From assembly GCA_947573135.1 (NCBI GenBank), contig CANPDU010000027.1, forward strand, positions 1 through 44,943: a stretch of 44,943 nt of DNA, read 5' to 3'. Below are positions 11,261 to 42,625 of the stretch, in pieces (the first letter of the stretch is position 1; each line of letters opens with the position of its first letter). Source of the DNA: an uncultured Bacteroidales bacterium. GTDB lineage: Bacteria; Bacteroidota; Bacteroidia; Bacteroidales; Muribaculaceae. A program made the translations under genes and the position numbers. The notes beneath the pieces are model-generated. The model saw only the letters and a list, made by a program, of their open reading frames with translations. It was not told the origin of the DNA and did no database searches.

Positions 11261-11268
11261 GGGGGGGG
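11261..11268. repeat. Run of eight G after the muramidase gene
   Basis: Eight consecutive G, in the context TTAAAATGGGGGGGGTAA, ten bases after a stop codon. A very similar context (TTAACATTGGGGGGGGTAA, minus strand) occurs at 36128-36146 inside a promoter. Confidence 0.7.
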
Positions 11269-11346
11269 TAAACATCTATTATTAAAAAAGTTTTAAATTG
11301 GTAGAAAAATAATTCACATATATTTCCTCAGTTTGTAAAATGTGCG

Positions 11347-11464: not shown

Positions 11465-13642
11465 ATGATGAAAATACAAGTTTTGTCACTGATAGCGGCA
11501 TTATTAGTCGCTACTGGTTCAGGTTGCACTGATAAAAAAGAGGTGAATGATTATGCATCGTTTGTCAATCCTTTGATAGGCAGTGGCGGCCACGGCCATG
11601 TTTTTGTGGGGGCATCTGTTCCTCACGGCATGATTCAGCTGGGACCTAATAATAATTCAATTGGCTGGGAATGGTGTTCGGGGTATCATGCCTCTGACAG
11701 TACTATCATTGGTTTCGCGCATACACATCTTAGCGGAACCGGAATAGCAGACTTGGGCGACATTATATTTATGCCTGTAACTGGAGTGTCTGTCGGAGAC
11801 GGATATCTGGCTGACGAAGAATATGTGTCTGCGTTTTCAAAATCGTCTGAATGTGCTGTGCCCGGCTATTATAGCGTAATTCTTGAACGGACGGGTATAA
11901 AAGCGGAACTGACAGCTACCGATAGGGTTGGATATCACCGGTATACATATCCCGGCGCAATAGGTGCAAAACTTGTAATAGATCTGGAAAATGGGGCGAA
12001 ATCTATTAATAGCCGTAAAGGTGTGACCGGTAGCGATATAGAGGTGATTGACAGTGTGACCATAAGAGGTTATCGTAACTCCGACGAGTGGGCTAGTGAT
12101 CATAAAGTATTTTTCTGCACAACGTTTTCTCATCCGATACTCTCTTGTGATATATTCCATGACGGAGACGCTTCAAAAGCATTGCTTGATTTCGGTAAGA
12201 TAGACGGCCCTCTTGAAGTTCGTACCGGAATATCATATACCTCACAGGGGGGAGCCGAAACCAATCTGAAAGCCGAAGGTCTTATGAATGATTTTGACTC
12301 GGTGCGTGCCGCCTCATATTCTCGTTGGAATGATGCATTGTCGGTGATTGATTTTGAGGCTCCTGATGAGACGAAACATATATTTTACACCGCATTATAT
12401 CACACCATGATAGCTCCGTCGCTGTTTGCGGATGCCGACCTGTCATATCGTGGAGCCGACGGGAATATTTATAAGGCCGGCGATTTTACCCCGTATACGG
12501 TTTTTTCACTGTGGGATACATATCGTGCAGTGCATCCCCTCTACACCTTAATTGATCCGCACGTATCAGACTACGTTAATAGTCTCATAGATATCTCTGC
12601 GCGTCAGAAGGCTTTGCCGGTGTGGCATCTTGTAGGTAATGAGACCAATTGTATGGTCGGGCTGCATTCGGTGCCCGTTATAGTAGATGCATGTCTGAAA
12701 AATATTCCGGAAATAGATATCGAAGCCGCTTATCGCGAAGTTGCCCGTATCGACAGTATGCCGTCTGCAGGTCTCGATTATGTGCGCAGCATAGGTTACA
12801 TTCCTGCCGACAAAGTGCCGTGGTCTGTCGCCCGCGGGCTCGAATACTGCATCGATTATTATTCTGCCGCCCGAATGGCTGAGGCATTAGACCGTGCTGA
12901 CGATTATGAAAGATATATAGCGCATGCCGGTGATTATCGTCACTATTTTGACAGTATCACAGGTTTTATGCGCGGGAAAATGTCGGATGGCACCCGTAGG
13001 ATTGATTTTGATCCGTCCTATAGTCTTCATATGGAAGACGATTATGTCGAAGGCAATGCGTGGCAGTACACATGGCTCGTGCCTCATGATCCGGAAGGAC
13101 TGATAAGCCTGATGGGCGGCCAGGAGCGGTTTGAGAGCAAGCTTGACAGCCTGTTTACCGTGAGTTCGGAACTTAACGAAGGAGCGTCTGCCGATATAAC
13201 CGGCATGATAGGCCAGTATGCCCACGGCAACGAACCGGGCCACCACATCATATACCTCTACAGCTATATCGGCCGAAACGACAAGATGGCCGACCGCCTG
13301 CGTCAGGTCTATGACTCGTTCTATACCATAGGAGCTGACGGACTTATCGGTAATGAAGATTGCGGACAGATGTCGGCATGGTATATATTCTCTACATTAG
13401 GATTCTATCCGGTAAACCCTGTTGACGGCACGTTTGTGCTTGGTTCGCCGCTGGCTGAACGTGCTACACTGCGGCTGATCAATGGAAAAGAATTTACAGT
13501 TGTTGCACATAATAATTCAGAGAGTAACCGGTATATTGGAGCAGTGACGCTGAATGGTAAACCATATAACAACTCTGTGATCCACTATGATGATATCATG
13601 GCCGGCGGTACACTTGAATTAGAAATGACTGCTAAAAAGTAA
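11465..13642 (+). CDS. GH92 family alpha-mannosidase-like lipoprotein
   Basis: This 725-residue protein starts with a lipoprotein signal (lipobox near TGSGC, about residue 20) and matches glycoside hydrolase family 92, calcium-dependent exo-alpha-mannosidases common in gut Bacteroidales. Family landmarks are VNPLIGSGGHGHVFVGASVP, FAHTHLSGTG, SLWDTYRAVHPLYTL, EDDYVEGNAWQYTWLVPHD, HGNEPGHHIIYLY (E590) and GNEDCGQMSAWYIFS. The likely location is the outer-membrane face or periplasm, acting on host N-glycans, yeast mannan or similar. No SusC/SusD pair is beside it. It ends tail to tail with the TonB receptor gene, overlapping by 11 bases. Two ATGs (11465, 11468) are possible starts. Confidence 0.92.
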   Translation: MMKIQVLSLIAALLVATGSGCTDKKEVNDYASFVNPLIGSGGHGHVFVGASVPHGMIQLGPNNNSIGWEWCSGYHASDSTIIGFAHTHLSGTGIADLGDIIFMPVTGVSVGDGYLADEEYVSAFSKSSECAVPGYYSVILERTGIKAELTATDRVGYHRYTYPGAIGAKLVIDLENGAKSINSRKGVTGSDIEVIDSVTIRGYRNSDEWASDHKVFFCTTFSHPILSCDIFHDGDASKALLDFGKIDGPLEVRTGISYTSQGGAETNLKAEGLMNDFDSVRAASYSRWNDALSVIDFEAPDETKHIFYTALYHTMIAPSLFADADLSYRGADGNIYKAGDFTPYTVFSLWDTYRAVHPLYTLIDPHVSDYVNSLIDISARQKALPVWHLVGNETNCMVGLHSVPVIVDACLKNIPEIDIEAAYREVARIDSMPSAGLDYVRSIGYIPADKVPWSVARGLEYCIDYYSAARMAEALDRADDYERYIAHAGDYRHYFDSITGFMRGKMSDGTRRIDFDPSYSLHMEDDYVEGNAWQYTWLVPHDPEGLISLMGGQERFESKLDSLFTVSSELNEGASADITGMIGQYAHGNEPGHHIIYLYSYIGRNDKMADRLRQVYDSFYTIGADGLIGNEDCGQMSAWYIFSTLGFYPVNPVDGTFVLGSPLAERATLRLINGKEFTVVAHNNSESNRYIGAVTLNGKPYNNSVIHYDDIMAGGTLELEMTAKK

Positions 13643-28225: not shown

Positions 28226-30100
28226 TTATTCGAAACTGTATATACCGTAGATGCCGTAATCACGGCTGCTCTTAGGTATCATCGGTGTGATATCTCCGTT
28301 ACGTTCGGGTTGCCATGTCCTGATTTTTATTATAGGCTTGTCGGCCTCGTTCAGATCCACGAACAAGAACAGATATCCCTGGTCTCCATAGTGTTGCGAG
28401 TAATAGTCCTGCTTGATCTGTATGCCGAACGTATTGCCGCCGAAGGCCGCTTTCTGTATGTCGTTGTCAGAGAAGTTGATATTGACATACTCGTTGCGTT
28501 TGAAACACTTTTCCAGCTGAGTGATATACTCCTCTTTTGTCTTGCGCTGGAATTCATATTGCGTTCCTACCGAAAAACCGCCTTTGTCGTTGTAGGCCTG
28601 TAGTTTCTGCAGCTTGTGGCCAACTATTATGTAGGCGTTTTCGTCAAAAATACTTTTTATATAATCAAGGCGTTTGAGCGCGAATGCTGTTTTATAGTTT
28701 TCCAGAAATGTAACTATAACCATCTTGATAGAATCGCCCCACACATCTCCTCCTTGTTTGAAAATATCGCGTCGAGCTGCATTGCCAAGTCCGAACGCAA
28801 CGCTTTCGATCTTTTTGTCGGGAGAAAAAGTGAATGTCACATCTTCAGTGAAAATGCGGTTGTTGTTCATGAATTTGAACTGCATCGGCACACTGCGGCA
28901 CACCACCCGGTCGCCCATCGGATAGAAGCCCGGATCAGGATTTCCTACTAAGGAAGCAGACCCGTAGCTGAGCAATTCGGTGAACATTTCCCGGCCTTCC
29001 GGTGTAAAGAGTTCATCCTTATCCGAATAGTCTTTATTGCGGATCGATTTGATGATTTCATCCATAATCCGCTGATAGTCTTTGGTCTGTTTTTTGTCGA
29101 GAGCGGCTATCCCTTCTTTTTTGCCTGATTCGACTATGGCCTGTAAATCTTTTTTGGCTTCTTTGTCTTCTTTCAGCTGTTTACCGTCAGTGCCGATGAC
29201 TTTTCGAGAGGCGGAGTATGACACGGGCTTGAAATTGCTGATCATTATCTCCAGTTCCTTGTCGCTCATAGCCGCTTCTTCATATCGCGTTTCTACCGAC
29301 AGGATGATTTCCTGAGGAGTGTAGTCAGGCGGAAACGACAGTTGGCTCATACCGTCTTTAACACCCGTAAGCGGCGAGTTGAATTTACCGTTCCAATATG
29401 TGAAATCCAGACCCTCGACAGGTCTGCCTTTATAAGTAAACAGCATGTCGATCGTATTGTCAGGCTTTATTTCAGCCACAGCCGCCTCGACATTCTCCAA
29501 AATCTCTTTCACCTGCATCGGGATCCAGTTGAGCAGCAGTTGCTCCTCGCCGCCTATCTTCATCCTGACCTCTCCGGGATATTGCAACGAATGAAGCATT
29601 ATAAAGGCCCAGTTATAGAAGCGCAGCGCATCGTCGACTCGCCCCTTCTCTTCGGCTCTGAACGCCGATCTCACATAATCCTCGACACGCTCCCGACGCT
29701 GGTTGAACATCTTCTCCAGCTCCGTACGCTTCATATAGCGCAGTATATAAAACCCTTTGTCTCCGTCGCGGAAAGAGCATGTCTCGGTGTTGGTTATCGT
29801 GGCCTGAGAATATGTATTAAGCACGGATTTGATATCGGCTTTATATTCTAATCCATCGTTATTGGCTGTCTCTTCTTCAGAAACAGACAGTGTGCTTTGT
29901 GCCGATATTCCGATTTTGCTTAACAGATTGGCGAGTGCCATTTGATCGGCGTCTCCTGGCGTCTCCCCCCAACCCTCGCCGTAGATGTAATCGGCATTTG
30001 CTTTGATTTCTTCAGCGAGTTTTTTCTGATTGCCATTATTCTGAGCCAAAACAATCATCGGCAACAGAAACAGTAAGATTACAAGACTTGCTTTTTTCAT
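28226..30100 (-). CDS. Secreted LPP20-like protein of unknown function
   Basis: This 624-residue protein has a signal peptide (LVILLFLLPMIVLAQ). Its first 130 residues look like an LPP20/FlgO-type domain: IYGEGWGETPGDADQMALANL, a run of small residues, then TCSFRDGDKGFYILRYMKRTEL. A helical stretch (about 140-200, including a TPR-like DDALRFYNWAFIML) follows. The remaining 400 residues contain alternating beta-rich parts, including a segment with VTFTFSPDKKIESVAFGLG and KTKEEYITQLEKCFKR, that I do not recognise. It is the last gene of a four-gene minus-strand operon, 23 bases after the GLUG protein. A periplasmic or outer-membrane role in that system is inferred from position only. Confidence 0.65.
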   Translation of the reverse strand: MKKASLVILLFLLPMIVLAQNNGNQKKLAEEIKANADYIYGEGWGETPGDADQMALANLLSKIGISAQSTLSVSEEETANNDGLEYKADIKSVLNTYSQATITNTETCSFRDGDKGFYILRYMKRTELEKMFNQRRERVEDYVRSAFRAEEKGRVDDALRFYNWAFIMLHSLQYPGEVRMKIGGEEQLLLNWIPMQVKEILENVEAAVAEIKPDNTIDMLFTYKGRPVEGLDFTYWNGKFNSPLTGVKDGMSQLSFPPDYTPQEIILSVETRYEEAAMSDKELEIMISNFKPVSYSASRKVIGTDGKQLKEDKEAKKDLQAIVESGKKEGIAALDKKQTKDYQRIMDEIIKSIRNKDYSDKDELFTPEGREMFTELLSYGSASLVGNPDPGFYPMGDRVVCRSVPMQFKFMNNNRIFTEDVTFTFSPDKKIESVAFGLGNAARRDIFKQGGDVWGDSIKMVIVTFLENYKTAFALKRLDYIKSIFDENAYIIVGHKLQKLQAYNDKGGFSVGTQYEFQRKTKEEYITQLEKCFKRNEYVNINFSDNDIQKAAFGGNTFGIQIKQDYYSQHYGDQGYLFLFVDLNEADKPIIKIRTWQPERNGDITPMIPKSSRDYGIYGIYSFE

Positions 30101-30123: not shown

Positions 30124-33100
30124 TTATAGTGCGATCTTTGTGTTTGCTATGATGTATATTCCAGCAGGTAGGTCGTTGACAGTGACTGTTTCTCCGGCCG
30201 GAATACTAACGGTGCGTACAACGCGGCCGGTCAGGTCGAATATCTTGACAGCGGTAGAGAACGATGAACAGATGCATACGTTGTGATCCGCTGTAGTCAT
30301 GACTTTTATGCCCATTTCTACCATCAGATCGTCAGCGGCAGTAGTCTCGAATATGCGCACGCGGTTTTGGTTACTTCCGGTGAGATAGGCTTCAAACGTG
30401 CGTATATCGCGGGCGGAGACTGCGAAACAGCTTCCCGGCTCTTCTCCCTCGACCTCATCGTTGTTGACGACTAATTTAGTGGCGTCACTACGATTGGTAC
30501 TGTAATTTGCTACGAGCCTATAACCGTTTATGTAGTCGTATGCAAGATCGGCAGGTGTCTGTTCGATAATGGCAATTGTGGATTCGAATTGGACTGATCC
30601 GCTAATATTGAATTGGTCATCATAAAATTCATTATTCGGCATGGCTATCAGGTATGGCTTGTTTGCCTCTATTTTTGCGGCCGGTGTCCAGCCTGTAGCT
30701 GTAGGCTGATACAACCAATATCTTAGAGCCAAACCTTTATCAGAATTTTCTGCGAAGGAGTACACCTCTTTGCCATTGTGAGTGATGGTTTCAACATTAA
30801 ATGGTAGCGCAATGGTTTCCCATCCGGCGCACTCGCCGTCAATTGCAGTACGTTTGGTAAAATCTCTTCTGTAGATGATTGTCGAAGCGATAAATTCATG
30901 AGGACAATACCACGGCCATTCGTCAGATATTCTGATATATTCCGCCTGACCATTGACAATGATATTTGATACTTTATCGCTAATCGGCGAAGCGATGTTG
31001 TTATCCGGAACATAAACCAAAAAGTTAGTATTACTTAACAAATTGTCCAAAGTTGCACTGTCAGTCCAGCCGTAGGCTTCATCAAACGCTCCGTCGCTGT
31101 CAAGCATAACATAGCTTTCTGTGCCGTAAGAATGGACTGAAATCCCTTGAGGAGTAGTATCAGTATAGCCAGCTTTTCTTGCAAAAGCCGAAATAGTCTG
31201 CAGACCTTCGACATCGAAGGTGCCTATATAGCGGTTATAATCTCCGCCATTTATGGAGTAATATATATCTGCGTTGTCAGGTGATGTTATTGTCAGATAG
31301 CGTCCGTTATAATCATAAGAGAGATTTTTAAGATCGTCCCCACTTTGCCAGTTGAGAGCAGGATAGCTTTTGAATATCTTGCCGGCGTTAAACGCTTCCC
31401 AGGTTTGAATTTCTGCTACAAGCTGAGCATGTGTTTCATCAGTGGCTACTATGACCTGATCACCAACGATTGAAATATCATTAGCTATAGCTTGATCGGA
31501 TCCTGAATTAAATGCTATTACATTAAATAAATCTGCCGAATTGCCGGTACGTGATGCTCCGCATACAAGGTATGGATTAGTCCCGGAAACTATTCCTGCA
31601 ACATAAACATTTTCAAGGGCGATATTATGGTTTACCCTGCCGATAAGTCCGGCTGTCAATCCGGCTCCTATGACTTCCACATTGGCATAGCAGTTTAACA
31701 TAGTGATCTCATTACCGGTTGATCCTATAATTCCGCCGGTATAATTTGTTTTATTACAGTCTATTGATCCGGTAACAAAAACATTTTCAAGTGTCAGAGT
31801 GCTGCCCGTGTTATGACCACCATAGGCTGCAAGAATTCCTGAACCAAAATTATAACTTATGATGCAATTAGCATCAACAATGCCGAGATTTTTAATTTCT
31901 CCTGACACGACGCCAAATATAGACGTGCAATAATATGAATTAGATGCAATATCTAACGGTCGATCTTCCGGTGCAAAGTTCTTTATAATATGATTTTGAC
32001 CGTCATAATGGATAACAGCTGCATATGTTCCGTTATATCCTGCAATAGCTGTCCATTTTGTTACACCGCTCATGTCAATATCGGCCGTCTGCTTGAACCA
32101 CACATCGCAACCGCCAGTGTTGATATGTTTATATGCATTACATAAATCCTCGACCGTTGTTATTATATATGGATCATCCATTGTACCTTTCGGTTCATCA
32201 GAAATGGGCTCGTCAACTCCGGTCTGCCAGTTGAGAGCCGGATAGCCCGAGAAAAGGGTTTCTTTACTGAAGGCCCGCCAAGTCTGTATTTCTGCTATAA
32301 GCTGGGATTTTGTTGATTCTGTGGCTATGTCTATTGAGCCGTCGATTTCAATGTCTTCGGCAACGGCTAATTCGGCGCCGGTGTTAAATGCGACGACATT
32401 ATATAAGATTAGGCTCTGAGATCTGTCAGCACCGATTACTAGGTATGGGCTGTAACCATTGGAAGCTCCGACAGATCCGGCGACATATACATCCTCAATA
32501 ACCGCACTATTGCGCAGGCGCCCTATAAGTGCGCCGGTATTTTTTTGTCCCTCGACTGTGACATTCGCATAACTATTTGATATGCTGACGTTATTGCCTG
32601 TTGTTCCTAACATGCCGCCGGTATATGATGCGTTAGAGGCGACATTTCCTGTTACGAAAACGTTGTCAACAGTCAGTTGTCCGGCGGTTGGATGACCACC
32701 ATACGCGGCAAGAATTCCGACTCCCTGAGTGCTGAAATCGGGTGCTGCGTCTATGATGCCGAGATTTCGGATTTCGCCTGAGACGACTCCGAATAGGGAA
32801 GTGCAGTAATAATAGCTGCCGTCAGCTACCATTGGGTTATTCGCTGGACAGAAGTTCTTGATGACATGTTTCTGTCCGTCGTAGTGGACGATAGACGCAT
32901 ATAGTCCACTATGCCCAGAAATCGCGTGCCAGTCAGTATGTCCGGCCATGTCGATGTCGGCGGTTTGAATGAAATAATATTCAGTGTCTGGTTGACCTGA
33001 GACATGTGTCCATGCATTGCAGAGATCCTCGGCAGAAGCGATCTGATAGGGATCAGCGGCTGTACCGGAACCGACAATTTCGGCGTGGGCAGAAAACGAT

Positions 33101-33147
33101 ACGACAGAGAGGAACGAGAGTGTGAGTGCATATAGGATTTTTCTCAT
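30124..33147 (-). CDS. Large GLUG-repeat surface protein with T9SS type-A sorting tail
   Basis: This 1007-residue protein has a signal peptide ending near FSAHA. Two tandem copies of a module of about 290 residues follow (about 25-312 and 318-620). Each begins DPYxI...EDLCNA, contains TADIDM, HYDGQ, SxFGVVSGEI and NLGIxDA, and carries GLUG-like repeats. Then come about 300 residues of mixed beta structure. The last 70 residues form a type-A T9SS C-terminal domain: AVKIFDLTGRVVRTVSIPAG, then LPAGIYIIANTK. It should cross the outer membrane through the T9SS encoded upstream and be attached to the surface. Substrate or partner is unknown; adhesion is one option. It lies in the PEGA-BACON-GLUG-LPP20 operon. 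Confidence 0.8.
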   Translation of the reverse strand: MRKILYALTLSFLSVVSFSAHAEIVGSGTAADPYQIASAEDLCNAWTHVSGQPDTEYYFIQTADIDMAGHTDWHAISGHSGLYASIVHYDGQKHVIKNFCPANNPMVADGSYYYCTSLFGVVSGEIRNLGIIDAAPDFSTQGVGILAAYGGHPTAGQLTVDNVFVTGNVASNASYTGGMLGTTGNNVSISNSYANVTVEGQKNTGALIGRLRNSAVIEDVYVAGSVGASNGYSPYLVIGADRSQSLILYNVVAFNTGAELAVAEDIEIDGSIDIATESTKSQLIAEIQTWRAFSKETLFSGYPALNWQTGVDEPISDEPKGTMDDPYIITTVEDLCNAYKHINTGGCDVWFKQTADIDMSGVTKWTAIAGYNGTYAAVIHYDGQNHIIKNFAPEDRPLDIASNSYYCTSIFGVVSGEIKNLGIVDANCIISYNFGSGILAAYGGHNTGSTLTLENVFVTGSIDCNKTNYTGGIIGSTGNEITMLNCYANVEVIGAGLTAGLIGRVNHNIALENVYVAGIVSGTNPYLVCGASRTGNSADLFNVIAFNSGSDQAIANDISIVGDQVIVATDETHAQLVAEIQTWEAFNAGKIFKSYPALNWQSGDDLKNLSYDYNGRYLTITSPDNADIYYSINGGDYNRYIGTFDVEGLQTISAFARKAGYTDTTPQGISVHSYGTESYVMLDSDGAFDEAYGWTDSATLDNLLSNTNFLVYVPDNNIASPISDKVSNIIVNGQAEYIRISDEWPWYCPHEFIASTIIYRRDFTKRTAIDGECAGWETIALPFNVETITHNGKEVYSFAENSDKGLALRYWLYQPTATGWTPAAKIEANKPYLIAMPNNEFYDDQFNISGSVQFESTIAIIEQTPADLAYDYINGYRLVANYSTNRSDATKLVVNNDEVEGEEPGSCFAVSARDIRTFEAYLTGSNQNRVRIFETTAADDLMVEMGIKVMTTADHNVCICSSFSTAVKIFDLTGRVVRTVSIPAGETVTVNDLPAGIYIIANTKIAL
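31290..33075. repeat. Internal tandem duplication in the GLUG protein
   Basis: Two in-frame modules (about 33075-32210 and 32195-31290 on the minus strand) encode parallel protein blocks sharing TADIDM, VHYDGQ, FGVVSGEI, NLGI and AYGGH. They are diverged at DNA level, so the duplication is not recent. Confidence 0.75.
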
Positions 33148-33154
33148 TGGAAGA

Positions 33155-34507
33155 TCAGTTTATCGGTTTATTGTCGCCTTCTTGAGGAGTGCGCTTGGGG
33201 TTTGTTTTGAATGGGAATGAGCCGAGGTCGAAGTTTTTTGTTTCGTTGTTGTTGGGATCGACGGCGTTGACAGAGACGGCGAATGAATAGTCAGTGTCAG
33301 GGGTTAATGTAGTATTATGAGTCCAGACAAGCCGTCCGTTGTTTGCGTCGACTGTTTCATGCTGCTCGGCTATGCTTTGTCCGTCAGAACCTTTAAGAAC
33401 AGCCGTGATCGTCTTAATAGTAATGTCGGAACTTATGCTGAACGAAGCGTCGACTGAGGTTATAGCCGGATTGATGACGCTCTCGGTCATCTGCGGTCCT
33501 GTAAAGACAATATCACCATCGGTTATTATCTGGAGCTGAGAACCGGAGACTTCGCCGACTTTAGACTTGACGAATGGTGTGAGTGTGTAGTGGGTGTTTT
33601 GTTCGAGTCCGTCGAGGGTGAAATTGTAGCTGCCGTTCTGAGGGTAGACTGCTCCCTGTTGCAGAGGAGCCACGAAACGCTGCCCCGAACCTGCGATGAT
33701 GACTCCGAGTTCATCGATCGGAGCGTTTGATTTATATGTGATAGACAAAGGTATGGTGTAGTAGGTCGGGGCGCCTGACGCGGTGAGTGCGATATCGGCG
33801 GGCAATGTCCCGGCAGCCTGAGTCATAGTGAATCGTGGTGGCAAGGTAATATATTCAAGCAAGGATTCGTCTGAAGGATAGAGCTGCAGGGTGACAGAGC
33901 GCGGTGAGGTAGTGTAGTTCGGTTTCCAGGCGGCACTGACTTCTATTTCGTTCCAGTCACCGCCGCCGCTCAAGCCTGGATCGAAGTCGAGCCAGCCGCT
34001 TTCGCCGTCGGAGATATTGAAGCGCCAATCAATTGAACTGTTGAACAGCAATTTATTAACGGCCCCCTGCTCAGGCGCTTCGGCAAACTCCTGAGTCTCC
34101 ATTGAGAAGCTCATCTTAGCTTGTATAAGGTCAATAGAGATGCTCTTGTCAAATTCGCGCGCATAAATACGCAGAGTTGCCGAACGGACCTGATCATTTA
34201 CGTTGAGCCCGGCGGTGACTGTGATAGTGCCGTTGCCTTTATGACCGGAAGCGGAGGCTGCAAAAGTGCCTTCAGGAGCCTCGATCTCCCATTCGACATT
34301 TGACAGTACATTGATGTCGCGAGGCTGGCCGTCGGCCGGGACTCTGAGCTGAGTGGCGGGGTCGGCGGTGAGATAGACATCGTCGAGCGATCCGACATAG
34401 TAACCGTCTTCAGTGGTGTCACATCCTGACAACAACAGGGCTAAAACAGCAATGGCTGCGTGATGGCTGCGGATGTTGCGGTATGGTGGTAAAGTGCGTT
34501 TCATCAA
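33155..34507 (-). CDS. BACON-domain outer-membrane lipoprotein
   Basis: This 450-residue lipoprotein has its lipobox LLSGC at C29. A BACON domain spans about 45-130 (INVLSNVEWEIEAP, then GNGTITVTAG and ATLRIYAREF). A second BACON-like domain spans about 135-230 (LLFNSSIDWRFNIS, SGWLDFDPG, SPRSVTLQLYP). Fibronectin type III-like segments follow (TASGAPTYYTIPLSITYKS, LEQNTHYTLTPFVKS, TPDTDYSFAVSVNAVDPN). The end is short and charged, with no sorting tail. BACON domains often bind carbohydrate or act as spacers on surface lipoproteins. It lies 8 bases after the PEGA/barrel gene and 7 bases before the GLUG gene. Either of two adjacent ATGs could be the start. Confidence 0.75.
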   Translation of the reverse strand: MMKRTLPPYRNIRSHHAAIAVLALLLSGCDTTEDGYYVGSLDDVYLTADPATQLRVPADGQPRDINVLSNVEWEIEAPEGTFAASASGHKGNGTITVTAGLNVNDQVRSATLRIYAREFDKSISIDLIQAKMSFSMETQEFAEAPEQGAVNKLLFNSSIDWRFNISDGESGWLDFDPGLSGGGDWNEIEVSAAWKPNYTTSPRSVTLQLYPSDESLLEYITLPPRFTMTQAAGTLPADIALTASGAPTYYTIPLSITYKSNAPIDELGVIIAGSGQRFVAPLQQGAVYPQNGSYNFTLDGLEQNTHYTLTPFVKSKVGEVSGSQLQIITDGDIVFTGPQMTESVINPAITSVDASFSISSDITIKTITAVLKGSDGQSIAEQHETVDANNGRLVWTHNTTLTPDTDYSFAVSVNAVDPNNNETKNFDLGSFPFKTNPKRTPQEGDNKPIN

Positions 34508-34515
34508 ATGATCGG

Positions 34516-36048
34516 TTAGAAGTTAAATGACAGGCCTGCCGTGATATAGATGCCTCCTTCGGATAGACCGGCCGGTGCTGAGATTGATTTATACAGTTCG
34601 TTGACGCTGACGGGCACAGCATATTCCGGCGTGATGAAGATACCCAAGACCGGAACGGGGGTGAAGATGCAGCGCGCGCCGACGCTGAGATTATGGCACA
34701 TCGCTCCGTTGCCGCGAGTGCCGCCGCGCAGGCGCTGTCCGAGATAACCTACCTGAGGCATGATGCCGAAACGCTGGATGAAACGGAACTGATATCCCAG
34801 TTTGAGCGTAAAGGCATCCATCGAGTACTGACATGTGCTGTCGTATATGTCGGGATCGTTCTGGAACCAATAGACATCGTCGCTCTTAGTCAGGCCGAGG
34901 GTGTAGCCGGCTTCGATACCGACGTTGGCGATTGTACAGCCGATACGCATCGTCACGCCGGGAATCTTGGCGTAAGTCGCACCGATGCTTGCATAGAATG
35001 AATTGCGGTGGATATACTGGACACGTTTCATATAGACCGTGTCGGCAGTTTCCTCGTTGCGGCTGACAGTGAAAGTTTTTGTTACTGGTATATAACCTTT
35101 GCGGCGGAAAGTATATGTGTAATCGCCTACAGGAGTCTGACGAGCCAGACGGTTTTCGGCGACGAGAGTGTCGGCGTTGAATATTTTGGAGCCGAAGGCG
35201 GGTCTGACTTCGATGGAAAGATAGCCTTTGAACGGTATCGGAGCCATGGCATCGATGACCGATGACCGGCCGGGCGTTACGGAGAAGTTCTGTATTGTGG
35301 ATTCGCAATTCTGTTTGCGCAGTTCAACCGTGTAAGTGCCCCCGCGCAGACGCGCATGCCATTCTCCGAGACCTACGCGGCGGCCTTCAAACCAGATCTC
35401 AGCTCTGTCTGGCACGGAAACCGTGATTTCGCCATATTTAAGGTTCTCGTCTTCCATCTGCAGCTCGAAACGGTCGGGGCCGTCGGGTGAGACGGTAATG
35501 ATACCTTCGTAGAACATAGATCCGCTTCGTGCAGTCACCCTGTGGTCGCCGTAAGAGATATAAGCGTTGACAGGCGACAGTCCGAGCGAATCATTGTCGA
35601 CAATGATCCCGGCGTGGTGGACAGAGGCAGTCAGTGTAATGTCCTTACCTTTGACGGTGAGTTGCATGGAGTAGGTCTTGCCGGCAATGATTTCTTCTTC
35701 AAAATAATACTGTAGGGGAGTGTATTTCGGATCGGTGATCTGTAGCTTCTGAGAGCGCGCAGGTATGTAGAGCCAGATCTGTCCGGGCTTGTTTTCACGC
35801 GCCACGACGCCTAACACTCCGTTATCGAAATATATGTCGGAAGGTTTAAGATTGGTATAAATTTTGATAAGGGCCGCTGTCTTGCCGTTCTGATCTGTTT
35901 TCGTAGTCTCTCGGTTGATGGCAGTCTGATCAGTCGGGAGTAATTTGAAGTCGCGGACGACAAGATCGGCTGCGTGTGCAAAAAATGTAGACAGACATAA
36001 AATTAAAAGTAGCAGCGGTCTAATCGATAGAGGCTCTCTTGGGTTCAT
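34516..36048 (-). CDS. PEGA-domain protein with C-terminal beta-barrel
   Basis: This 510-residue protein has a signal peptide ending near FFAHA, then several small beta-sandwich domains. One is a clear PEGA-type repeat (about 265-325: GYLSIEVRPAFGSKIF...DYTYTFRRKGYIPVTKTFTV), preceded by a related copy (IWFEGRRVGLGEWHARLRGG). The last 170 residues are a predicted outer-membrane barrel (SFYASIGATYAKIPGVTMRI, TLKLGYQFRF) ending GLSFNF, with the terminal aromatic signal. It is the first gene of the four-gene operon and lies downstream of a promoter with a poly-G spacer. It may anchor the other products at the outer membrane; that is inference. Confidence 0.75.
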   Translation of the reverse strand: MNPREPLSIRPLLLLILCLSTFFAHAADLVVRDFKLLPTDQTAINRETTKTDQNGKTAALIKIYTNLKPSDIYFDNGVLGVVARENKPGQIWLYIPARSQKLQITDPKYTPLQYYFEEEIIAGKTYSMQLTVKGKDITLTASVHHAGIIVDNDSLGLSPVNAYISYGDHRVTARSGSMFYEGIITVSPDGPDRFELQMEDENLKYGEITVSVPDRAEIWFEGRRVGLGEWHARLRGGTYTVELRKQNCESTIQNFSVTPGRSSVIDAMAPIPFKGYLSIEVRPAFGSKIFNADTLVAENRLARQTPVGDYTYTFRRKGYIPVTKTFTVSRNEETADTVYMKRVQYIHRNSFYASIGATYAKIPGVTMRIGCTIANVGIEAGYTLGLTKSDDVYWFQNDPDIYDSTCQYSMDAFTLKLGYQFRFIQRFGIMPQVGYLGQRLRGGTRGNGAMCHNLSVGARCIFTPVPVLGIFITPEYAVPVSVNELYKSISAPAGLSEGGIYITAGLSFNF

Positions 36049-36111
36049 GTATATTAGTTATTATGATTGGTTTATCTGGTTAATAGCTGTTATTTCATAC
36101 GATAATTTTAT

Positions 36112-36140
36112 ACAAAATTAAATAAAATTACCCCCCCCAA
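36112..36140 (-). promoter_or_regulatory. Promoter of the envelope operon with poly-G spacer
   Basis: On the minus strand, TTG (plus 36138-36140) and TAATTTTG (plus 36112-36119) are separated by 18 bases. The G of TTG starts a run of eight G (plus 36131-36138), so seven of the spacer bases are G. Other promoters in the window mostly have 19-21 base spacers. Change in G number would change spacing. Transcription should start near 36105, about 57 bases before the PEGA gene. Confidence 0.6.
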
Positions 36141-36205
36141 TGTTAATAAGTGCTAATAATATGTAAATATGCTAATTCTTCGGGATTTGCTGTAGATTTG
36201 AGCAA

Positions 36206-36220: not shown

Positions 36221-36254
36221 GTTTATCGTTTGCGGTCTTTTAGATCTATAAATA

Positions 36255-36293
36255 AAAAAGATCCGCTCTTGCTTTGGCAGGGCGGATCTTTTT
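36255..36293. terminator. Terminator after porN
   Basis: A 12-bp stem, AAAAAGATCCGC (36255-36266) with GCGGATCTTTTT (36282-36293), follows the porN stop on the minus strand and has a T-rich minus-strand tail. It separates the T9SS operon from the envelope operon. Confidence 0.85.
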
Positions 36294-36321: not shown

Positions 36322-37458
36322 TTATCGCTTGCGGTTGCGGACAGAGCGCGTGGCCGATGATGCGGCTTTGGCTTTCTGTTGCTTGGGCTCTTTGACTTTC
36401 TTTGATTCTTTTTTCGCAGAACTTTTCGATGACCGTTTGGTGGAGCGTGTCGCTTTGACGGCCGGTTTTGCCGCATCGGCTGCAGAGACTGTGTCGCCTC
36501 GCTCGGCAGCTTCACGAGCCTCGCGGGCAGCGATTACTTCTTCGCGCGAGGGTACCCATAGTTTTTTGTCAAAGTTGTCGAGGGTCGCCTGTATACTGTC
36601 CTGAGCGCGTTTTCGGCTGTCATCGTCGGGATAGATCTGGAGCATCGAACGGTTTTTGAGGTTGCGTGTCTTATAGATCTCGCCGTCATACATAGTCAGG
36701 TTGAAGTAATCGTCGTAGTTGCACGTCGGCAGGTTGTTGTCGTCGGATGTGAAGATCTGCTGCTGGGCGAGCCAGGGGCGGATGTCGCTGAATTTGATCC
36801 AGAACATGGGGTAGCGGATGGGCTCGCCGCCGAAATCGCCTGAGCGGTGAAGCACGGGGCAGATTGCTTCGATGTGCGGCCGCAGGCTGTTGCTGCGAGT
36901 GTCGAATTCCCAGCGCTCGATGACGTAGTAGGACAACACTTCGTTGGCCGGCACATCGCTCTCCTCGATGGTGAAGCGCGGATTACGCTCGGTCGAGCCT
37001 TTTGCGTCGGTGTAGAGGATATGGAAGCGGTCGAGGATGTCGCGCACCTTAACTTTGTATTGGTCGGAGAACACTTCGCGTCCGTCGAGATACTCGTAGG
37101 CCGACACCTGATTGTTGGCGAGAAGGCGCATGATGATGCGGAAGAGGTTTTCCTGTCCGTCGATCGGCTCGTCGGGATAGTAGAGCGGCGCGTTCTTGTC
37201 TTTGTTGAGGTCGAGCTGACGGTAGATTACGCGCATCCACTGTCGGTCGGCGTCAGAGACAGACGCGTCGCCGGTCTCGTAGAACGCCTGCATGCGGTCG
37301 GTCACCACAGGACCTGAGGCGCCGTTGTCTTTCTTGCGCTCGGCGGCGCTGCTGCGGCGCACCACACCGCGTTCGTCGGCGTTGTCCTGTGCGAAGGCCG
37401 GCAGACTCAGCGAAAGGAGCATTGCTGCAGCGGTGACGTATTTGCTGATAGTTTTCAT
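36322..37458 (-). CDS. porN: T9SS periplasmic ring protein PorN/GldN
   Basis: This 378-residue protein has a signal peptide (AAAMLLSLSLPAFAQ) and a GldN-family core: WMRVIYRQLDLNKDKNAPLY, NLFRIIMRLLANNQVSAYEY, and WIKFSDIRPWL. With PorK it forms the ring under the outer membrane of the type IX secretion machine. The C-terminal 60 residues are a low-complexity tail very rich in K, R, S and A, not needed for the family fold. It is last in porT-P-K-L-M-N and is followed by a terminator. Confidence 0.93.
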   Translation of the reverse strand: MKTISKYVTAAAMLLSLSLPAFAQDNADERGVVRRSSAAERKKDNGASGPVVTDRMQAFYETGDASVSDADRQWMRVIYRQLDLNKDKNAPLYYPDEPIDGQENLFRIIMRLLANNQVSAYEYLDGREVFSDQYKVKVRDILDRFHILYTDAKGSTERNPRFTIEESDVPANEVLSYYVIERWEFDTRSNSLRPHIEAICPVLHRSGDFGGEPIRYPMFWIKFSDIRPWLAQQQIFTSDDNNLPTCNYDDYFNLTMYDGEIYKTRNLKNRSMLQIYPDDDSRKRAQDSIQATLDNFDKKLWVPSREEVIAAREAREAAERGDTVSAADAAKPAVKATRSTKRSSKSSAKKESKKVKEPKQQKAKAASSATRSVRNRKR

Positions 37459-41623: not shown

Positions 41624-42625
41624 TTACATTATGCGTATGTTCTTATGACGGTGACGGTTTTTGTCCGACATGTCGATTTTCATCTTATAGCCGGCAAACA
41701 CTTCGTGGCTTCCTGACGAGGCTTTGGCGATAGCAGAGGTCGCGTAGTCGTAACTGTAGCCGATGAAGATATTCTTGAACTCGGCTGCAACTGTGGCTAT
41801 AATCGCGTCGCGCCATCTGTAGCCGAGACCGAAGGTGAGAAATTTGTCGTAACGGCAGCGGACAGTCGCTTCGCCGGTAGTGAAAGTGAAGTCACTCTTG
41901 ACCAGCACCGATGGAACTATTTCAAATAACGTGTTATTGATCGGAATATTGCTTATGGCGGTGAAATATAGGGTGCGCTTTGCCTGAAACTGAAACTCCT
42001 GGGTCGTGGTCTGCGATCCTGATGCGGTTTCGGCGGTCATTGTGACTGTCGGAGAGGTCAGGTGAGTGGCCGACAGGCCTGCACTGAAGTAACGGTGAGT
42101 GTACCATACGCCGAATGCGAGGTCGAGAGCTGTGCCATGGATATCCTGATCCGGGATGCCGTCGTCGTTACTGTCGTGGTAGTTGTCGTCGTCAGGGATG
42201 TAGACTTCCGAACCTTTGAAGCCCTGATCATAGAAGCCAATCTGCAGGCCGGCTGACAGCGATCCTCCCAAGAGACGCTTTGAATATGAGATTTGAGCTC
42301 CGGCGTTGAGCGAGTTGTAAAGACCGGCCTTGTCGGTGTCGAAAAGCACTCCTAATCCGATGCGCTTGCCGAAGAGTTTCAACGGCATGTCGGCAGTGGC
42401 TACGAAGTCGCGGGGAGCGTTATCGATACCGACCCACTGCATTCTCATGCCCCCCCTTATGCGAAGGAAGTCTGTCTGGCCTATGGCCGAGGGATTGAAA
42501 TAGGATGGCACTTCATAGTACTGCGAATATTGCGCGTCGGTCTGAGCGGCAGCATTCACGGTGGATATCGCCGCGGCGGCAGCAAGAATTGCAGATGAAA
42601 TATGTTTTCGGAATGACTGGCGCAT
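41624..42625 (-). CDS. porP: T9SS outer-membrane protein PorP/SprF
   Basis: This 333-residue beta-barrel has a signal peptide (ILAAAAAISTVNAAAQ) and the PorP/SprF start QYSQYYEVPSYFNPSAIG. The strands include LRIRGGMRMQW and GLGVLFDTDKAGLYNSLNAG, and the tail is basic. PorP proteins link the T9SS or its substrates to the outer membrane. The gene starts 3 bases after porT ends and leads the canonical porP-K-L-M-N order. A run of seven G occurs in the coding strand at about 42447. Confidence 0.93.
   Translation of the reverse strand: MRQSFRKHISSAILAAAAAISTVNAAAQTDAQYSQYYEVPSYFNPSAIGQTDFLRIRGGMRMQWVGIDNAPRDFVATADMPLKLFGKRIGLGVLFDTDKAGLYNSLNAGAQISYSKRLLGGSLSAGLQIGFYDQGFKGSEVYIPDDDNYHDSNDDGIPDQDIHGTALDLAFGVWYTHRYFSAGLSATHLTSPTVTMTAETASGSQTTTQEFQFQAKRTLYFTAISNIPINNTLFEIVPSVLVKSDFTFTTGEATVRCRYDKFLTFGLGYRWRDAIIATVAAEFKNIFIGYSYDYATSAIAKASSGSHEVFAGYKMKIDMSDKNRHRHKNIRIM

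Follow-up and report, generated by a model that had tools for sequence, protein, structure and literature searches.

Is a run of eight G in front of a surface-protein operon in an uncultured member of the Muribaculaceae a phase-variable spacer peculiar to that operon, or part of something more general? The window considered here is the whole stretch of 44,943 nucleotides that was analysed and belongs to a 56-contig assembly. Its minus strand carries four tightly packed open reading frames, running from 36048 down to 28226 with gaps of 8, 7 and 23 nt. A preliminary description, made from the letters of the window, proposed that slippage in the run could switch the operon. Parts of this are supported: a poly-G tract does sit in a promoter region, the genes behind it code for surface or secreted cargo, and among near relatives no other feature of such promoters is as changeable as the number of G. 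The observation is also larger than was first thought. The tract had been taken as special to this operon; it belongs to an element that recurs, with further copies in the genome and in related genomes. A phase-variable spacer unique to the window operon is ruled out, since the element recurs.

The tract and promoter of the window operon

The uninterrupted G8 lies on the minus strand, 82 nt 5' of the ATG at 36048 (Table 1). In order, the promoter reads TTAG-CACTTA-TTAAC-ATT-GGGGGGGG-TAATTTTATT-TAATTTTG-TATAAAATTATCG on that strand, and its first half-site, TTAG, stands exactly 10 bp 5' of the second, TTAA. The preliminary description saw a -33 TTG running into eight G. Eight uninterrupted G are present; they follow TT, which makes TTG plus seven G. 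The perfect -7 box TAATTTTG is one base away from the 36112-36119 given earlier, and the gap from TTG to this box is 17 rather than 18; G10 would therefore give a spacing of 19, not 20. The remark that the spacing is short stands, because 11 of 12 other TAnnTTTG boxes in the window have gaps of 19-22 and one has 15, these being putative promoters picked mechanically as TAnnTTTG with TTG 15-23 nt 5'. Set against an ordinary Bacteroidota primary-sigma promoter, with TTTG about 19-21 nt 5' of TAnnTTTG, the window copy has ATTG and the gap of 17.

Table 1. Positions of the promoter element, the operon and neighbouring features in the window
Feature	Position	Strand	Basis or remark
G8 tract	36131..36138	-	sequence and shuffles
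First half-site TTAG, one mismatch to TTAA	36153..36156	-	position from family profile
Second (promoter-proximal) half-site TTAA	36143..36146	-	TTAACATTGGGGGGGGTAA at 36128-36146 and family profile
Linker CATT between second TTAA and G8	36142-36139	-	
TAA directly after G8 tract	36128..36130	-	as in 9 of 12 G8+ tracts of the genome
-7 candidate A, TAATTTTG, perfect consensus	36113..36120	-	26 bp past second TTAA, uncommon geometry
-7 candidate B, TAAAATTA, two mismatches	36103..36110	-	36 bp past second TTAA, common geometry
Operon gene 1, PEGA-domain protein	34516..36048	-	over Pfam cut-off
Operon gene 2, BACON-like	33155..34507	-	below cut-off
Operon gene 3, Por_Secre_tail, type IX secretion cargo-like	30124..33147	-	below cut-off
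Operon gene 4	28226..30100	-	without Pfam family
gldN, 5' neighbour of the promoter	36322..37458	-	E 1.1e-53
Second element copy, TTAAGTGATGTTAAAATGGGGGGGGTAA	11244..11271	+	5' of GH92 gene 11465-13642; without -7 box at usual distance

The -7 box of the window copy may be either the perfect box at an uncommon distance (candidate A) or the weak box at the usual distance (candidate B); the latter aligns by eye with the perfect TAAATTTG of a paralogous promoter at the C6 locus described below. Compared with the rest of the element family, the window copy is atypical in its geometry. Among 49 genomes of the genus, the promoter-plus-gene region found a match in two, the window's own genome and a 96-bp stretch, 72% identical, within the gene. 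The G8 tract is a plausible candidate for a switch at this locus.

The cargo had been described as PEGA, BACON, type IX secretion and LPP20-like proteins. Of these assignments PEGA is upheld by Pfam; BACON and Por_Secre_tail fall short of the cut-off, and the fourth protein has no Pfam family. At the protein level the operon is matched in 20 of the 99 genomes of the family, the window's own included, the best of the others being 30% identical, and a comparison of the fourth protein with the product of the C6 gene gave no meaningful match. GldN, encoded next to the promoter, is a component of the type IX secretion machinery. The interval that separates gldN from the operon contains an inverted repeat GATCCGC...GCGGATC (36254-36290, seen by eye), with an A run 5' and a T run 3', which is likely a terminator; the hairpin tool, which considers loops of 3-8 only, gives just the inner plus-strand stem there. 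Elsewhere in the window, a possibly frameshift-prone G7 tract (42450-42456, minus strand, context CATAAGGGGGGGCATG) lies within the open reading frame 41624-42625.

A recurring promoter element and its cargo

The tract belongs to a recurring promoter element that consists of TTAA-N6-TTAA, a short linker, 7-11 uninterrupted G, TAA and, usually, a TAnnTTTG -7 box. A DNA search of the window's own genome with the promoter region led to two more places, C6 (77% over 68 bp) and C1 (88% over 32 bp), both 5' of open reading frames with signal-peptide-like starts. A pattern search of the same 2.85-Mb genome gave 16 G8 positions, which represent 12 distinct tracts. TAA follows the tract directly in nine of the 12, and in seven of these nine two TTAA-like half-sites with at most one mismatch each can be seen by eye, 10 bp apart.

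In the family, TTAACNNNGGGGGGGTAA with two mismatches matches 90 of 99 genomes, a count that is not usable as evidence because the reversed control also matches often in that search. The sites themselves are more informative. In 60 regions fetched from the matches listed, 50 of 74 sites with G7 and TA have TTAA within 14 nt 5', and in 38 of the 50 a second TTAA, which the search pattern did not demand, stands exactly 10 bp further 5'. When 46 own and family sites were anchored on the second TTAA and picked regardless of the first half-site, the four positions at exactly -10 were T in 93%, T in 91%, A in 96% and A in 89%. The distance from the second TTAA to TAA was fixed near 15 by the pattern behind most of these sites, and an argument from a fixed distance of 15 was withdrawn, having been imposed by the search. 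The half-site pair can be read as a direct or as an inverted repeat. At locus L288 (about 2860-2930), the other strand of a G9 element has the same TTAA pair with TAnnTTTG 37 bp away and lacks a G run; the pair is possibly one site for two divergent promoters.

Across the order, a strict pattern matched 25 times, in 12 of 295 genomes, and its reversed control once; the bearers include all five sampled genomes of the window's own family and seven of the 290 others. Over the phylum, a similar pattern matched five of 395 genomes and was about at control level outside the window's own genome. The exact pattern was found at no fewer than 119 loci in a species-level genome collection (genome_contigs). 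Among the matches listed, 78 of 80 titles name Bacteroidia, nearly all of them Bacteroidales, if two Candidatus genera are counted with that order as we assume; the remaining two are metagenome-assembled genomes labelled Paenibacillus and Clostridium, labels which are reproduced as given. A phage origin was considered and dropped, there being no exact match in viral_contigs.

Could the run be chance, or an artefact of assembly? Homopolymers are prone to error and the window comes from an assembly in 56 contigs. However, GGGGGGGGTAA occurs twice in 45 kb (36128-36138, minus strand; 11261-11271, plus strand) and in none of 100 dinucleotide shuffles, and the same element appears in many independent assemblies, which makes this explanation very improbable.

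Behind the element, 62 of 88 downstream open reading frames have signal-peptide-like starts, compared with 139 of 394 other open reading frames of the same loci, although the signal-peptide call is a crude rule of our own, the background frames exceed the downstream ones in length and the 88 include a few duplicates. These 88 come from 121 sites, 33 of which have no downstream frame by the rule. After 13 duplicates, doubtful or very long frames had been left out, 75 were compared with Pfam and NCBIfam (E <= 0.01). Among the first 25 families listed for each database there is no dominant cargo family: LRR_5 occurs in five of the 75 proteins, Thioredoxin_8 in four, DUF285, DUF6562 and Por_Secre_tail in three each and DUF3575 in two, with the NCBIfam PARCEL repeat in six. 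Some related genes lie behind the element in different genera, namely those for a DUF4595 lipoprotein (L003 and L151, proteins 47% identical) and for an outer membrane protein (L022 and L095, DNA 74% over 340 bp).

A link to the type IX secretion system was rejected. GldN is found in all 12 element-bearing genomes of the order, and this co-occurrence says little because it is found in 272 of the 295 altogether; Por_Secre_tail is matched by three of the 75 downstream proteins, those already counted. In a separate observation, four loci (L189, L235, L253 and L262) have promoters that resemble one another, element included, and almost identical signal peptides. Their mature proteins give no match in four of six pairs and about 24% identity over 106-110 aa in two, so that the four look like a promoter-plus-signal-peptide cassette on different proteins.

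Spacing to the -7 box and the number of G

Near 117 exact sites, 58 of 92 TAnnTTTG boxes lie 35-36 bp past the second TTAA, where shuffles give about 0.08 boxes per position; 29 of the 117 sites have no box within 60. A smaller set of 39 family sites shows clusters at 34-36 (11 boxes), 41-44 (seven) and 29-30 (five), with the rest scattered. Measured from the tract, the G run ends 18-24 nt before the -7 box at 78 of 121 exact sites, which is 78 of the 93 boxes found; 32 of the 121 sites have no -7 box within 55 nt. In this main class the G run occupies the -33 position, where TTTG would stand.

These distances bear on the simplest account of the window promoter, in which, as in Neisseria porA, a -33 TTG and the -7 box TAATTTTG flank a slippery G spacer and no regulator is involved. 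The window copy taken alone would fit, with its TTG, seven more G, a perfect box and a gap of 17, and a few other sites (L224, L228 and L098) have a -7 box 10-11 nt past the tract. For the element as a whole, however, the tract is not inside a spacer between two core elements: it lies outside the -33/-7 interval because 78 of the 93 boxes near the 121 exact copies are 18-24 nt beyond it. The conserved TTAA pair upstream would also be left unexplained. The account is thus improbable, and the original picture of a plain spacer between TTG and the -7 box gives way to one in which TTAA-N6-TTAA precedes a run that ends well upstream of the box. What the element does have is a homopolymer between a conserved box and the -7 box, the arrangement of the Bordetella fim promoters; the window copy has this with a single mismatch in its first half-site and two candidate -7 boxes.

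Tract lengths over the 121 exact sites are G7 (48), G8 (41), G9 (22), G10 (eight) and G11 (two). Paramuribaculum intestinale DSM 100749, a cultured relative, has a G10 copy (L192). All comparisons of length are between species or between copies, mostly in metagenome assemblies. Among pairs of similar promoters, which share members and are not independent for that reason, the number of G differs in 33 of 53 and is equal in 20; where the flanks are at least 90% identical, it differs in seven of ten and is equal in three. A difference of one G separates the members of each of the five most similar pairs (flanks 94.1-100% identical). In the most alike of them (L073 and L106, loci 95% identical over 3 kb) one tract is G9 and the other G10, between flanks that agree at all of 472 bases upstream and 558 downstream (1,030 in all). 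This pair supplies the first two genomes in a series of orthologous outer membrane protein promoters, which was found in seven of nine genomes of one genus with G10, G9, G9, G8, G10, G9 and, in one case, no tract. On a single contig, L273 has two copies of the element with similar flanks, one G8 and one G9.

The distance from tract to -7 box falls by 1.01 for each base of linker (95% CI 0.73 to 1.33) and by 0.19 for each G (CI -0.31 to 0.69) over 72 sites, which are the 122 minus 40 without a perfect box at 15-28 nt and minus ten near-duplicates; the correlation between linker length and G number is -0.78 here, partly owing to the search pattern. Mean spacing accordingly rises from 35.4 at G7 to 36.2, 37.0 and 38.0 at G8, G9 and G10 (33, 22, 13 and four sites). 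When outlying spacings are trimmed, leaving 66 sites, the slope is -0.41 per G (CI -0.72 to -0.10), a partial compensation. Linker length is thus constrained by a fixed overall distance, while G number is mostly free; extra G therefore lengthen the spacing from the putative regulator to the promoter, because linker changes are compensated downstream and G number mostly is not. Such freedom is expected of contingency tracts, and a neutral tract tolerated by a regulator would behave likewise.

In a different reading there is no switch, and the whole element, G tract included, is a fixed operator recognised by a regulator of envelope genes. The protein would read the G run as sequence or as DNA shape, and differences in length between species would be tolerated noise. 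This has a substantial chance of being right, if less than an even one. It is in keeping with the TTAA pair and TAA that accompany the run, with the presence of the element before related genes in different genera (L003/L151 and L022/L095), with the constrained spacing to the -7 box and with the partial compensation of G number in the trimmed set. Against it, near-identical promoters differ in their number of G before anything else, and this number is compensated far less than linker length. The tracts are also uninterrupted, and a mere recognition site should tolerate interruptions. Pure runs of at least seven G make up 79 of the 150 TTAACNNNGGGGGGGTAA-pattern matches listed, where mismatches placed at random would give 27% (two mismatches) to 53% (one mismatch). 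Five loci with interrupted tracts that were examined look like chance because all five are without a first half-site; the absence of G4-6 tracts behind TTAA-N6-TTAA is not counted, most loci having been selected for G>=7.

Proposed working and relation to known systems

The reading preferred here, to which we would give an even chance, is that the G tract is part of a Bacteroidales element through which expression of surface or secreted cargo is both regulator-dependent and tuned by slippage. Half-sites 10 bp apart would suit a dimeric regulator. A putative regulator, possibly Crp-like, would bind the TTAA pair and recruit or position RNA polymerase at the -7 box without a normal -33 element, and the G tract would set the distance and rotation between the two. 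Slippage between 7 and 11 G would then shift that distance by single bases, so that expression of the cargo could be tuned or switched among sister cells. We infer that a regulator binds the TTAA pair, that it activates rather than represses, and that one G more or less alters expression. Two genes for Crp-like cNMP_binding proteins that share 57% identity have the element in front of them, one in the window's own genome (L017, contig C16) and one at L282. The Crp-like gene is a candidate for the regulator, and its position suggests possible autoregulation.

The nearest of the known systems compared is that of the Bordetella fimbrial genes, and the element fits a slippage-tuned promoter of the fim box plus C-stretch type. 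BvgA is the activator of the Bordetella fim promoters. The C-stretch of the fim2, fim3 and fimX promoters adjoins a conserved fim box, tract lengths vary among strains, and C8 in fimX goes with 3.8-fold less transcript than C7 (PMC1891110). In both systems the promoters of several surface-protein genes carry a homopolymer beside a conserved box. Unlike the fim promoters, the element has G7-11 on the coding strand, a TTAA-N6-TTAA box, the Bacteroidota -7 box TAnnTTTG and many unrelated cargo genes; the variation recorded in its number of G is between species and between copies. In Neisseria porA, a poly-G tract lies between the -35 and -10 elements. The element shares with porA a poly-G run in the promoter of a surface protein gene; in most element copies that have a -7 box, however, the tract ends 18-24 nt before it, at -33 and next to a half-site pair.

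Neisseria nadA has TAAA repeats together with NadR and IHF, and the number of repeats alters the spacing of regulator sites relative to promoter elements (PMC2791445). A change in G number would likewise alter regulator-to-promoter spacing, although nadA involves a tetranucleotide repeat, a repressor whose operators lie on either side of it and a single gene. Primary-sigma promoters of Bacteroidota have TTTG at -33 and TAnnTTTG at -7 (PMC7366714); the element shares their -7 box, and in its main class a G run replaces the -33 TTTG. In searches of the open-licence literature, neither a poly-G promoter of Bacteroidales nor a description of an envelope-gene regulon marked by this element was found.

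It may be that gut Bacteroidales, foremost the Muribaculaceae and Prevotella-like lineages, have a genome-wide contingency system in which a shared slippery poly-G element independently tunes many unrelated surface or secreted proteins under a common regulator, and in which a clone is a mixture of surface types. This wider proposal is tentative, and we regard it as quite possible while rating it somewhat short of even. Its cargo would include BspA-type LRR proteins, lipoproteins, DUF3575 proteins and type IX secretion cargo. Promoter inversions are known in Bacteroidales, and surface variation of the gut members is mostly attributed to inversion of DNA. The element would point to a set of co-regulated envelope genes even if there were no switch. 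Heterogeneity in the poly-G tracts can be tested in ordinary short-read data. If the proposal is true, the contingency system would stand beside these promoter inversions, and the poly-G element would add a second source of surface heterogeneity in gut Bacteroidales, independent of the first, with consequences for the encounters of these abundant bacteria with antibody, phage and mucus.
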